NCBI RefSeq assembly: GCF_029714365.1
Contig: NZ_CP121659.1
Coordinates: 1,922,001 to 1,986,000, forward strand
Reading direction: 5' to 3'
Length of the DNA stretch: 64,000 bases
From: Sinorhizobium terangae
GTDB taxonomy: Bacteria > Pseudomonadota > Alphaproteobacteria > Rhizobiales > Rhizobiaceae
Numbering within the stretch: the stretch's first letter is position 1; each line of letters opens with the position of its first letter. Positions 3,452 to 36,589 of this stretch are shown piece by piece. Under the pieces are notes generated by a model. It worked only from the letters and a program-made list of their open reading frames with translations. It searched no databases and was not told where the DNA came from. Position numbers and translations under genes: made by a program.

Positions 3452-3643
3452 CTATGGAAGTTCGATCTCGCCGTCCACCACGTGGTTGAGGCCGGTGCCT
3501 TCCGCCGTCAGCGTCATGCGGACCTTCAGCTTCCTGCCGCCGACCTGCCCTTCGCGCACGGCCTCCTCGATCTTGCGCTGCGACGTGATGCCGACTTCCT
3601 TCAGGAACTTGCGGAGCGACATGTTGAAGGCGTCTTCGCTCAT
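3452..3643 (-). CDS. DUF6494 family small protein
   Basis: A 63-residue basic protein (SLRKFLKEVGITSQRKIEEAVREG, then a short beta-rich tail ending in EIELP). It matches the small rhizobial family I know as DUF6494; the function is unknown. The fold looks like one helix-turn-helix-like pair followed by strands. An AGAGAGGAG-like site precedes the ATG at 3643. It lies downstream of the minus-strand sRNA and upstream of the SAM hydrolase gene. Confidence 0.75.
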   Translation of the reverse strand: MSEDAFNMSLRKFLKEVGITSQRKIEEAVREGQVGGRKLKVRMTLTAEGTGLNHVVDGEIELP

Positions 3644-3735
3644 GGCGGAACTCCTCTCTATCCGGGAGGGATTGTAAGGGAAGGCAAGCGGTCAAGGAAG
3701 CAGAACAGTCATGCAGTGCCATAGCCGTGCCATAG

Positions 3736-3770
3736 AAAAAGACCCCGAGCCGGGAGGAGGCGTCGGGGTC
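3736..3770 (-). terminator. Intrinsic terminator of the sRNA
   Basis: An eight-base-pair GACCCCGA/TCGGGGTC stem encloses a GCCTCCTCCCGGC loop and is followed on the minus strand by five T residues. It doubles as the third hairpin of the sRNA. Confidence 0.85.
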
Positions 3771-3850
3771 TCTTGATCGGCCCCTTGGGAGGAGGAGCGG
3801 AACCGATCGATTGGCTTGCGCAGCGGGAGGAGGTACTGCGCGCTGTCAAT
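3736..3850 (-). ncRNA. Anti-Shine-Dalgarno-loop sRNA (cuckoo RNA-like)
   Basis: Read on the minus strand this stretch folds into three consecutive hairpins, each presenting CCTCCTCCC in its loop: stem GCGCAG/CTGCGC, stem GATCGG/CCGATC, then stem GACCCCGA/TCGGGGTC. The last is followed by TTTTT, making it a factor-independent terminator. Loop-exposed CCUCCUCCC is the anti-Shine-Dalgarno hallmark of the cuckoo/CIN1-type sRNAs of rhizobia; the alpha-r14 (MmgR) family is a weaker alternative. Such RNAs are thought to pair with ribosome sites of mRNAs. The 5' end is approximate and no promoter was fixed. Confidence 0.8.
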
Positions 3851-4087
3851 GGTGAAGATAGAACATGCCCCATCATCGAATTGTTCCCGAAGTAACATCG
3901 CAGTCTTGCGCGGAGCGCATTGTAGCAATGCCTTGAATTAGCCGTGTTGAATCCCGATCTGTCACGTGGGAAGCGGCTCTGGAGCTCCCGGAATCCGATA
4001 ATCAATCAATGAATCAAGGTGGTAGGCGTCCGCACGGCTGACCGGCTACGCGCGACCAACTCCCACCCGACGAACGGAGGGACGGCC

Positions 4088-5101: not shown

Positions 5102-5322
5102 ATTGGCACTCATTCCGGACGAACGCCGGCGACCGCTCCTGGCCCATGGTGGACCTTGCACGTCAGAACGCTGAGGTCCGAATTGGGTGGCAGGACTAAG
5201 CCGCTCGCGCGGCAATGGCGCTTGTGGCTGGCGGTGCGTTTCCTGATCGACGTCGGTTCTTTGTGTCTCGGGTTCCTGGCCTGACGATTGAGACTTCTCA
5301 ATCTGATGGACAGGAGGGTCCG

Positions 5323-6210
5323 ATGACAGAGGAGAAGACCACCGCGCTGCGTGAGCGGATGATCGAGGACATGCGCATCCGCGGGATGGGCGACAAGGCG
5401 CAGCAAGGCCACATCCGGGCGATCAAGGATTTCGCGGCCTTTCTGGGGCGCTCACCCGACACGGCGACGCCGGAGGAGTTGCGGGCCTACCAGCTACACA
5501 TGACCAATGCCGGGGTGACGCCCTCGACATTCAATGTCCGGATCATCGCGCTCAGGTTCTTTTTCGGGATCACCTGCGGGCGCGAGGAGATGAAGCGGTA
5601 CATGCAGTTCCAACGCAAACCGCAGAAGCTGCCGGTCGTCTTGAGCGTCGAGGAGGTCGCCGACCTGCTGGCCGCGGCTCCCGGGCCCGGGCTGAAGTAT
5701 CGGGCGGCGCTCAGCATCAGCTATGGCGCCGGGCTGCGGGCGTCGGAGGTGTGCCACCTCAAGGTCACTGACATCGACAGCGAGCGCATGCTGATCCACG
5801 TCGAAGAAGGCAAGGGCGGCAAGGATCGCAAGGCCATGCTATCGCCGGGCTTGCTGGATCTGCTGCGCGATTACTGGCGGGAGGCGCGTCCGCGGGGATG
5901 GTTGTTTCCCGGCAAGCCGAAGATCAATCCGATCTCGCCGCGCCAGCTCAACCGGGCCTTCACCGCGGCCAAGCACATGGCGGGCATCGCCAAGCCCGCA
6001 ACGCTGCATACCCTGCGCCACAGCTTCGCCACGCATCTGCTGGAGGCGAACACCGACGTGCGGGTGATCCAGGTTCTGCTCGGCCATGCCAAGCTGAGCA
6101 GCACCGCCCGCTACACCCACGTCGCCACCAAGTTGATCCGCGACACCATCAGCCCGTTCGAGCGCCTGAAGCAGTTGGAGGATCTCACCCTGAGGCGTCG
6201 GCTGGAATGA
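5323..6210 (+). CDS. Tyrosine recombinase (XerC/D-like) of the IS91 module
   Basis: A 295-residue integrase. The N-terminal SAM-like core-binding domain covers roughly residues 1-90. The catalytic domain shows the first arginine in YGAGLRASEV, the lysine in GKGGKDRK, the HTLRHSFATHL box (H-x-x-R), LLGHAKLSSTARY with the histidine, and the nucleophilic tyrosine in ARYTHV. All catalytic residues are present. The ATG at 5323 follows CAGGAGGG. It lies 13 bases before the transposase start. In this arrangement it may resolve or assist transposition. Confidence 0.88.
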   Translation: MTEEKTTALRERMIEDMRIRGMGDKAQQGHIRAIKDFAAFLGRSPDTATPEELRAYQLHMTNAGVTPSTFNVRIIALRFFFGITCGREEMKRYMQFQRKPQKLPVVLSVEEVADLLAAAPGPGLKYRAALSISYGAGLRASEVCHLKVTDIDSERMLIHVEEGKGGKDRKAMLSPGLLDLLRDYWREARPRGWLFPGKPKINPISPRQLNRAFTAAKHMAGIAKPATLHTLRHSFATHLLEANTDVRVIQVLLGHAKLSSTARYTHVATKLIRDTISPFERLKQLEDLTLRRRLE

Positions 6211-6223
6211 AGCGCGCGCCGGG

Positions 6224-7417
6224 GTGCCCCGGCAAAAGCTGGAGATCGCTGACATCTTCCGAGCCTATGGGCCTGCGTGGCGGCGAGCCAATGCCGGGCA
6301 TGTCAGCCTGACCCAGCTCAAGGTCATGGCGGCGATCGAAGCCTGCCGAACCGAGGCGCTCGGCGGGCATGTGGCGGCTTGCACCAAGTGCGGGCATAAC
6401 CACATCGCCTATAATTCCTGCAAGAACCGGCACTGTCCGAAGTGCCAGGGCCCCGCGGCGCGCGACTGGATGGCCGCCCGCGCCGAAGACCTGCTGTCGG
6501 TCGAGTATTTCCACGTGGTCTTCACCCTGCCGGCCGAGATCGCGCAGATCGCTTACTGGAACAAGAAAGCTGTCTACGACCTGCTGTTTCGGGTATCGGC
6601 CGAGACGCTGAGCACTATCGCCGCCGATCCCCGGCAGCTTGGCGCGCACATTGGCATGACCAGCGTGCTACACACCTGGGGATCGGCGCTGATCCATCAC
6701 CCGCATGTGCACATCATCGTGCCCGGCGGCGGGCTGTCGCCGGATGGCACGCGGTGGATCTCATGCCGCCCCGGGTTCTTCCTGCCGGTGCGGGTTCTGT
6801 CGCGACTGTTCCGGCGGTTGTTTATCGCAGGGCTGCGGGCACTGCATTGCGCCGGCGATCTGAGGTTCTACGCTGATCTGACAGCTCTCGCAGAGGCTGA
6901 CGCGTTCGCCGCCTGGCTGGCCCCTTTGCGCAAATCAGAATGGGTCGTCTATGCCAAGCCGCCGTTCGGCGGTCCCGAAGCGGTGCTCGCCTATCTCAGC
7001 CGCTATACCCACCGGGTGGCGATCTCCAACAGCCGTCTGATCAGCGCCGATGCCGAGACCGTCACCTTCCGCTGGAAGGACTACCGGATCAAGACCGGCG
7101 ACCGTCAGAAGGTGATGCGGCTGGCCACCGACGAGTTCATCCGCCGCTTCCTGCTCCATGTGCTGCCCGACGGTTTCCACCGCATCCGCCATTACGGCCT
7201 GCTCGCCAGTGCGGGCCGCAAGACCAAGGTCGCAAAGATCCGCGCTCTGCTCGGAGCGGAAACGGCCAAACACAATGATCCGCCAAGCGCTGAGACGATC
7301 CCGCTCACTCTGAGACAGCCATGCCCCGAGTGCGGTGGCCCGATGCGCATCATCGAGATCTTCCGACGCGGTCAGAAACCCAGAGCCCGGGCGCCACCGA
7401 GAAAGCAGGCCGCATGA
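6224..7417 (+). CDS. IS91-family HUH transposase
   Basis: A 397-residue rolling-circle transposase. The N-terminal zinc module is CTKCGHNH followed by CKNRHCPKCQ (residues about 53-75). The HUH motif is HPHVHIIVPGG near residue 160, and the catalytic tyrosine region is YLSRYTHRVAISN near 245. A CPECGGPMRI zinc knuckle near the C-terminus is followed by a basic tail. The start is GTG at 6224; no ATG is available in frame. All signature residues are intact, so the enzyme looks active. Confidence 0.9.
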   Translation: MPRQKLEIADIFRAYGPAWRRANAGHVSLTQLKVMAAIEACRTEALGGHVAACTKCGHNHIAYNSCKNRHCPKCQGPAARDWMAARAEDLLSVEYFHVVFTLPAEIAQIAYWNKKAVYDLLFRVSAETLSTIAADPRQLGAHIGMTSVLHTWGSALIHHPHVHIIVPGGGLSPDGTRWISCRPGFFLPVRVLSRLFRRLFIAGLRALHCAGDLRFYADLTALAEADAFAAWLAPLRKSEWVVYAKPPFGGPEAVLAYLSRYTHRVAISNSRLISADAETVTFRWKDYRIKTGDRQKVMRLATDEFIRRFLLHVLPDGFHRIRHYGLLASAGRKTKVAKIRALLGAETAKHNDPPSAETIPLTLRQPCPECGGPMRIIEIFRRGQKPRARAPPRKQAA

Positions 7418-35636: not shown

Positions 35637-35773
35637 TCGCGGGATGCTTTGCGGCTATCTTGCTTGACAGCGCCGGCTGAAGAGCGGAAAACACCCCGCA
35701 TGGGGTTGCGATCACCCCACGAGGCGACAGCCGAAGCATCGCGTCCGATCAACCGCTAGACGGAGGACGCGCC

Positions 35774-36589
35774 ATGCCGTCACTTCTCGAAATTTCATCC
35801 GAAAAGCTTGCCCGCCTTATCGGCACCCCGAAATGCCCGGCTCTTATCGATGTGCGCACCGACGAGGATTTCGCAGCCGATCCGCGGCTGGTCCCCGGCT
35901 CGGTCCGGCGCGATTACCGCGAATTGCAGCTCTGGATCGATGACCTCTACGGTCAGTCGGTGATTGTCATCTGCCATCGCGGCAAGAAGCTCAGTCACGG
36001 CATTGCCGCCTGGCTCCGCCACGCCGGCATTAAAGCCGATGTGCTCGAGGGCGGCTTCGAAGCCTGGGCCGGGTCCGGATACCCGGCGGTTCCCGCCTCC
36101 GTCTTGCCCAAGCGCGATGAACAGGGGCGCACCGTCTGGGTGACACGATCGCGGCCGAAGATCGACCGGATTGCCTGCCCTTGGCTCATCCGACGCTTCA
36201 TCGATCCCAACGCGGTGTTCCTGTTCGTTGCCCCATCGGAAGTCGAGGCGGTCGCGGATCGCTTCCAGGCGACGCCGTTCGACATCGACGCCCCGATCCG
36301 CTTGAGCCATCGCGGCGAACTCTGTACGTTCGATGTGATGGTTGAGGAGTTCGGGCTTGCGACGGATCCCCTGCTCCACCTTGCAACGATTGTGCGCGGC
36401 GCCGACACGGCGCGCCTGGACCTCTCACCGCAAGCTCCCGGCCTTCTTGCCGCATCGCTCGGCCTGTCGCGTATGTACGCGGACGACAATGAACAACTTG
36501 AGGCAGGCCTGCTTCTTTACGACGCGTTTTACCGCTGGTGCCGCGACGCCACCGACGAAACGCACAACTGGCCGAAAAAGGGAGCGTGA
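35774..36589 (+). CDS. chrB: Rhodanese-ChrB fusion, chromate resistance
   Basis: A 271-residue protein. Residues 1-110 are a rhodanese domain with C67 in IVICHRGKKLSHG, and 125-260 match the chromate-resistance ChrB domain (RPKIDRIACPWLIRRFIDPNAVF, CTFDVMVEEFGL). ChrB senses chromate and controls chrA, or modulates sulfur chemistry; this fusion form is known in Rhizobiaceae. It directly precedes and overlaps chrA by one base (TGATG). The ATG at 35774 follows GGAGG. In the cytoplasm it probably protects against chromate. Confidence 0.87.
   Translation: MPSLLEISSEKLARLIGTPKCPALIDVRTDEDFAADPRLVPGSVRRDYRELQLWIDDLYGQSVIVICHRGKKLSHGIAAWLRHAGIKADVLEGGFEAWAGSGYPAVPASVLPKRDEQGRTVWVTRSRPKIDRIACPWLIRRFIDPNAVFLFVAPSEVEAVADRFQATPFDIDAPIRLSHRGELCTFDVMVEEFGLATDPLLHLATIVRGADTARLDLSPQAPGLLAASLGLSRMYADDNEQLEAGLLLYDAFYRWCRDATDETHNWPKKGA

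Follow-up and report, generated by a model that had tools for sequence, protein, structure and literature searches.

Does a small RNA that displays one anti-Shine-Dalgarno motif in three successive hairpin loops represent a new kind of translational regulator, or is it a copy of one already known? The question is raised by the minus strand of a 64,000-nucleotide stretch of Sinorhizobium terangae DNA (the window), where a preliminary description from the letters alone had noted three successive hairpins with the same loop motif, the terminator hairpin included. Motif search and folding confirmed this arrangement (see the table). Exact copies of CCTCCTCCC number four on both strands of the 64 kb window, against a mean of 0.74 in shuffled sequence (four or more in 1 of 100 shuffles), and three of the four fall within a span of 82 bases, on the minus strand. 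The 115 nt read from 3850 to 3736 fold as three successive hairpins at -52.3 kcal/mol, a value that none of 200 shuffles equalled. The motifs of the first two hairpins have an unpaired probability of about 1.0 at every base, and the terminator hairpin has the first two C of its motif paired.

Features of the locus and the further αr14 copies of the same genome (window positions unless a contig is named)
Feature	Position	Strand	Details
Promoter-like block	3856..3897	minus	GTTACTTCGGGAAC near start; CTATCT (3856-3861), -10-like, at end; putative promoter
αr14 small RNA gene	3736..3850	minus	about 115 nt; RF02344, 64.2 bits; fold z = -5.22
Hairpin 1	3814..3843	minus	CCTCCTCCC at 3825-3833, all nine bases unpaired
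Hairpin 2	3775..3808	minus	CCTCCTCCC at 3787-3795, all nine bases unpaired
Hairpin 3 = intrinsic terminator	3737..3774	minus	CCTCCTCCC at 3752-3760, seven of nine bases unpaired; T run after
DUF6494 small protein gene (63 aa)	3452..3643	minus	downstream of the RNA; PF20104, 101.9 bits; serves to anchor synteny, separate from the RNA
Other αr14 copies, same genome	C1:1241471-1241878 (two in tandem); one on C2; one at C1:3750469		

An Rfam scan of the whole window returned two matches over threshold, ar14 (RF02344) at 3736-3850 on the minus strand and chrB-a; the chrB-a RNA lies on the plus strand at 35697-35776 (81.1 bits, above threshold). The ar14 match covers model positions 1-123 of 123 with a score above the gathering value of 58.8, and its ends are exactly those that had been assigned to the RNA before any family model was applied. 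This full-length score confirms membership of the αr14 family, and the feature that marks its members, three hairpins with unpaired CCUCCUCCC, is found here, the third hairpin with seven of its nine bases open. According to the portions of PMC10746234 available to us, αr14 members consist of three hairpins, each with an identical ultraconserved CCUCCUCCC anti-Shine-Dalgarno motif, on stems that differ, and the regulator type proposed at the outset, an anti-Shine-Dalgarno translational regulator, matches that description. Three loops had at first been taken as unusual, but the family is described by three (PMC10746234, same portions). The idea that the loops act on several sites at once does not appear in the available portions of PMC10746234 and PMC7143759, where the NfeR1 motifs are reported to be redundant and to pair with mRNA starts. 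The window RNA is an ordinary member of the known αr14 family, and its loop number is not new. The second stem varies between copies with its pairing kept (GATCGGTTCC/GGGGCCGATC in the window copy, GATTGGCAAC/GTTGCCAATC in copy L001) and the loop motif unchanged; single folds were used for this comparison, column-based covariation having been abandoned when the alignment of hairpin 2 across copies proved visibly wrong.

How widely such loop series occur was seen in a scan of one genome per species, which found at least 120 stretches with three exact motifs in a row. Among the 80 matches listed by title, 74 are Alphaproteobacteria by name, one is named only as Pseudomonadota, and the five others are, going by their titles, two Bacillota, two Actinomycetota and one Myxococcota. 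The five records outside Alphaproteobacteria by title, in which no αr14 RNA would be expected, are what could be said for chance, that is, for C-rich hairpins that do nothing; but the family score, the fold z-score, the synteny and the conserved promoter block described below all speak against it, and the Rfam match contradicts it, so that this explanation is hardly credible at all. Allowing A, C or T at the first base and a distance of up to 90 between starts, the longest motif run among the 120 matches listed has three motifs in 73 loci and a larger number in 47, with a maximum of 12 reached by two. Counted by motif, such arrays can thus exceed three loops, whether or not they are homologous to αr14. 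The long arrays among the matches listed are L085 and L164, with 12 motifs each, and L072, L116, L126, L147 and L171, with 10 each; the five of these seven loci that were listed by title are Rhodobacterales by name. Several triple-motif loci lie just behind what looks by eye like the end of a DUF1127 gene, as in CcsR1-4.

A Rhodobacter-type CcsR RNA, cut from a transcript that it shares with a DUF1127 gene, was considered as well. A relaxed Rfam scan to E 10 gave six matches, among which the name cuckoo or CIN1 is absent; besides ar14 they include CcsR1 at 26.9 bits over the first two hairpins, and the other four are also under their cut-offs. The CcsR1 score fails the gathering threshold of 65.3, and CcsR1 membership was rejected. 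CcsR1 is characterised by cotranscription with a DUF1127 (CcaF1) gene in the available portion of PMC8307010, whereas the five neighbouring proteins of the window RNA that were tested against Pfam gave DUF6494, SAM_HAT, Pterin_4a and two without a match, with no DUF1127 among them. With a promoter-like block directly upstream of the RNA in addition, a CcsR-type origin is very improbable.

An αr14 match at E 0.001 was found in 45 of 60 genomes (own included), over the cut-off in 37, and in none of 14 control genomes. The genome of the window itself holds five αr14 copies over threshold, of which the window copy scores lowest; four further matches with E of 1 to 10, below threshold, were left out of the count. 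Three sites in this genome at which GGGAGGAG precedes ATG (L200, L201 and L209, at C1:1411227, C1:1581527 and C1:2253591) lie opposite sub-threshold αr14 matches; they could be what is left of additional copies, or a coincidence.

The neighbouring DUF6494 gene allowed the locus to be followed through the genus. Orthologues were searched for in 60 genomes, 32 of them of the same genus including the own, and 30 loci, all same-genus, were compared (G006 and G018 left out). The RNA is present at 20 of these loci and absent at 10, a division made with a motif filter and a hand-made exclusion list of 10 and supported by cmscan, by which none of the 10 has an αr14 match at E 0.1. Of the 20 RNA-bearing loci, 3 have all three motifs exact, 6 have two, 4 have one and 7 have none (the RNAs of L050 and L052 were extracted short at the 5' end, with motif counts unchanged by eye). 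The Rfam threshold is passed in six (the window's and 5 of the 19 others), 12 are below it and two have no match at E 0.1. The preliminary description would have given way to a missing family score together with missing loop conservation; the score is present, and the conservation of the loops is partial. The window copy is a divergent paralogue that many related species have in changed form or lack. By eye, a TACAAT box (3671-3676) precedes the DUF6494 gene, with TTGACC at 3690-3695; the spacing is only 13 bases, so the DUF6494 promoter is uncertain. On the plus strand at 5215-7417 the window carries a tyrosine-recombinase-like frame with a transposase-like frame directly after it, together resembling an insertion element.

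This pattern of loss invites the reading that the window copy belongs to a relict line, recognisable and little used, with loops drifting under weak constraint. All three exact motifs in just 3 of 20 loci, the many sub-threshold scores and the ten loci from which the RNA is gone are as such a relict would have them, and at L057 and L063 the 5' end of the RNA seems, by eye, to be left upstream of DUF6494 with the rest gone, like a deletion scar. By contrast, neither copy has fewer than two exact motifs at any of 24 tandem-copy loci: the first copy three in 17 and two in 7, the second three in 15 and two in 9. These loci were picked by eye from 30 (L001 and L009-L037, leaving out L031-L035 and L037) and had been reached through best-scoring matches, which biases the first copies to intact ones and makes the second copies the fairer yardstick. 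Conservation at the DUF6494 loci, however, does not look like general decay. Mean pairwise identity over the 20 loci is 0.98 in the terminator stem, 0.83 in stem 1 and 0.70 in stem 2, and the three motifs, at 0.76, 0.81 and 0.82, fare no worse than the promoter-like block at 0.74. The window copy moreover has all three motifs intact, and the copies L003 and L004 of the same genome have only two exact ones each. A relict is on balance unlikely, if a serious alternative.

The block upstream of the RNA (3857-3897 in the comparison) stands out from its surroundings, identity being 0.31 farther upstream, a value depressed by gaps, and 0.57 behind the terminator, with segment limits that are approximate at the stems. 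The pattern GTWACCYDGGGNAC, taken from the 20-locus alignment, occurs exactly in 18 of 190 loci, namely 17 DUF6494 loci and L105 elsewhere. It has no exact match in the genome of the window, because the window version, GTTACTTCGGGAAC, departs from it at two positions. With mismatches allowed, the block core of the window copy matches at 12 of 14 positions, a score that 14 of 4000 random 200-nt window segments also reach. Before the other four αr14 copies of the genome the best match is 9 or 10 of 14, which is the background level; at the 20 RNA-bearing loci it is 12-14 of 14 and at the 10 loci without the RNA 9-11 of 14, with the pattern derived from the same alignment. Since the core accompanies this RNA and is at background before the other copies, the window copy appears, on sequence grounds, to be served by a distinct type of promoter.

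Other upstream signals were sought. For NfeR1, the αr14 RNA of Sinorhizobium meliloti, LsrB is the activator and NtrC the repressor (PMC10746234, as far as available). At the window copy the LsrB box TGCA-N6-GCAT is matched at best in 6 of 8 positions (-69 relative to the RNA start); each of the other four copies of the genome reaches 7 of 8, in two cases at -72 and -66. The motif is short and the comparison weak either way, and the published box is not clearly there at the window copy. A second near-match, GCATTGCTACAATGC (13 of 15 to the L004 element, equalled by 4 of 4000 random window segments), does not hold its place in the 19 other loci and was set aside. A general-stress promoter of EcfG type (GGAAC-N16-18 and a GTT box) was rejected with matches in 2 of 30 loci (L038, the window's own, and L053), and CTTAGAC-N15-19-CTATAT occurs in none of loci L001-L067. 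Tentatively, the DUF6494-linked copies might form a separate αr14 sub-line, in which the same loop output would answer to another transcriptional signal by way of the conserved GTWACCYDGGGNAC...CTAT block, and the altered loops of several species would pair with different start regions; we consider this possible but not probable.

What the RNA does is best read from its relatives. NfeR1 is Hfq-independent, and its three motifs, redundant in silencing, silence ntrBC (ntrB), according to the portions of PMC10746234 available. We consider it very probable that the window RNA is a paralogous copy of this NfeR1-type trans-acting small RNA, with an apparent promoter and a terminator of its own, whose loops pair with the start regions of mRNAs and lower their translation, most likely redundantly. 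Each hairpin presents a C/U-rich loop resembling the anti-Shine-Dalgarno sequence of 16S rRNA; through this resemblance each loop could pair with mRNA start regions of the GGAGG type, so that the 30S subunit would face competition there and be kept off, with translation lowered. Judged by base-pairing, the partners would be Shine-Dalgarno sites of mRNAs rather than the ribosome's own tail. By analogy with NfeR1, silencing by pairing is the most likely mode of action, and the three loops are most likely redundant.

Target-like sites of the form GGGAGGAG-N4-11-ATG number 54 in the genome against 8 for the reversed control pattern, an excess that would be expected anyway of a genome with strong Shine-Dalgarno sites. 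Among the first 30 of the 54 sites listed, 23 open a frame of at least 50 aa and seven do not. Seven of the 23 frames encode transport proteins by Pfam (BPD_transp_2, Peripla_BP_4, SBP_bac_1, BCCT, two BPD_transp_1 and an OMPP1/FadL-type outer-membrane protein); of the others, one is a GlnE and three gave no Pfam hit at the chosen cut-off. This transporter share agrees with the class of targets published for NfeR1, as consistency and not as proof. From its position and on inspection, the gene that precedes ntrC (TIGR01818) was taken as ntrB; GAGGAG lies before its ATG and AATGAGGAGATGGCGGCATG at its start. Duplexes of loop pieces with this start have energies of -11.7 to -16.3 kcal/mol and those with the DUF6494 start -11.2 to -14.5; with values so similar, no clear specificity emerges. 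The window copy may also be weak or silent, since only one of the six αr14 copies of S. meliloti was reliably detected by Northern blot under the conditions tested (PMC7143759, as far as available). Its score, the lowest of the five in its genome, and the loss of motifs or of the entire RNA among its orthologues likewise count against the NfeR1-type reading.

The triple-loop pattern is an established small RNA architecture, and there is no need to follow it up as a novelty. What remains of interest is that this divergent paralogue has a promoter-like block to itself and that part of the genus has it in altered form or lacks it. Its natural variation at a fixed locus, with intact, altered and missing loops, is a modest lead that could help to find out how many anti-Shine-Dalgarno loops an RNA of this type requires.

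Among known systems, the cuckoo RNA family (Reinkensmeier and Giegerich 2015) is cited for the loop motif, together with an αr14 survey, in the available portions of PMC10746234. AbcR1 and AbcR2 (αr15) resemble αr14 RNAs in their CU-rich anti-Shine-Dalgarno motifs and transporter targets (PMC10746234, PMC7143759), but have two motifs, bind Hfq and form a separate family (PMC7143759; both sources as far as available). CcsR1 (RF02791, Rhodobacter) has CCUCCUCCC loops in common with the window RNA and differs in family score and in its DUF1127 association. The closest counterpart is αr14 NfeR1 (Smr14C2), which the window RNA matches in length, in its three hairpins with CCUCCUCCC loops, in a third hairpin that serves as terminator and in occurring as several copies per genome; compared with NfeR1, it is a divergent copy with a promoter-like block of its own and a best LsrB-box match of only 6 of 8.
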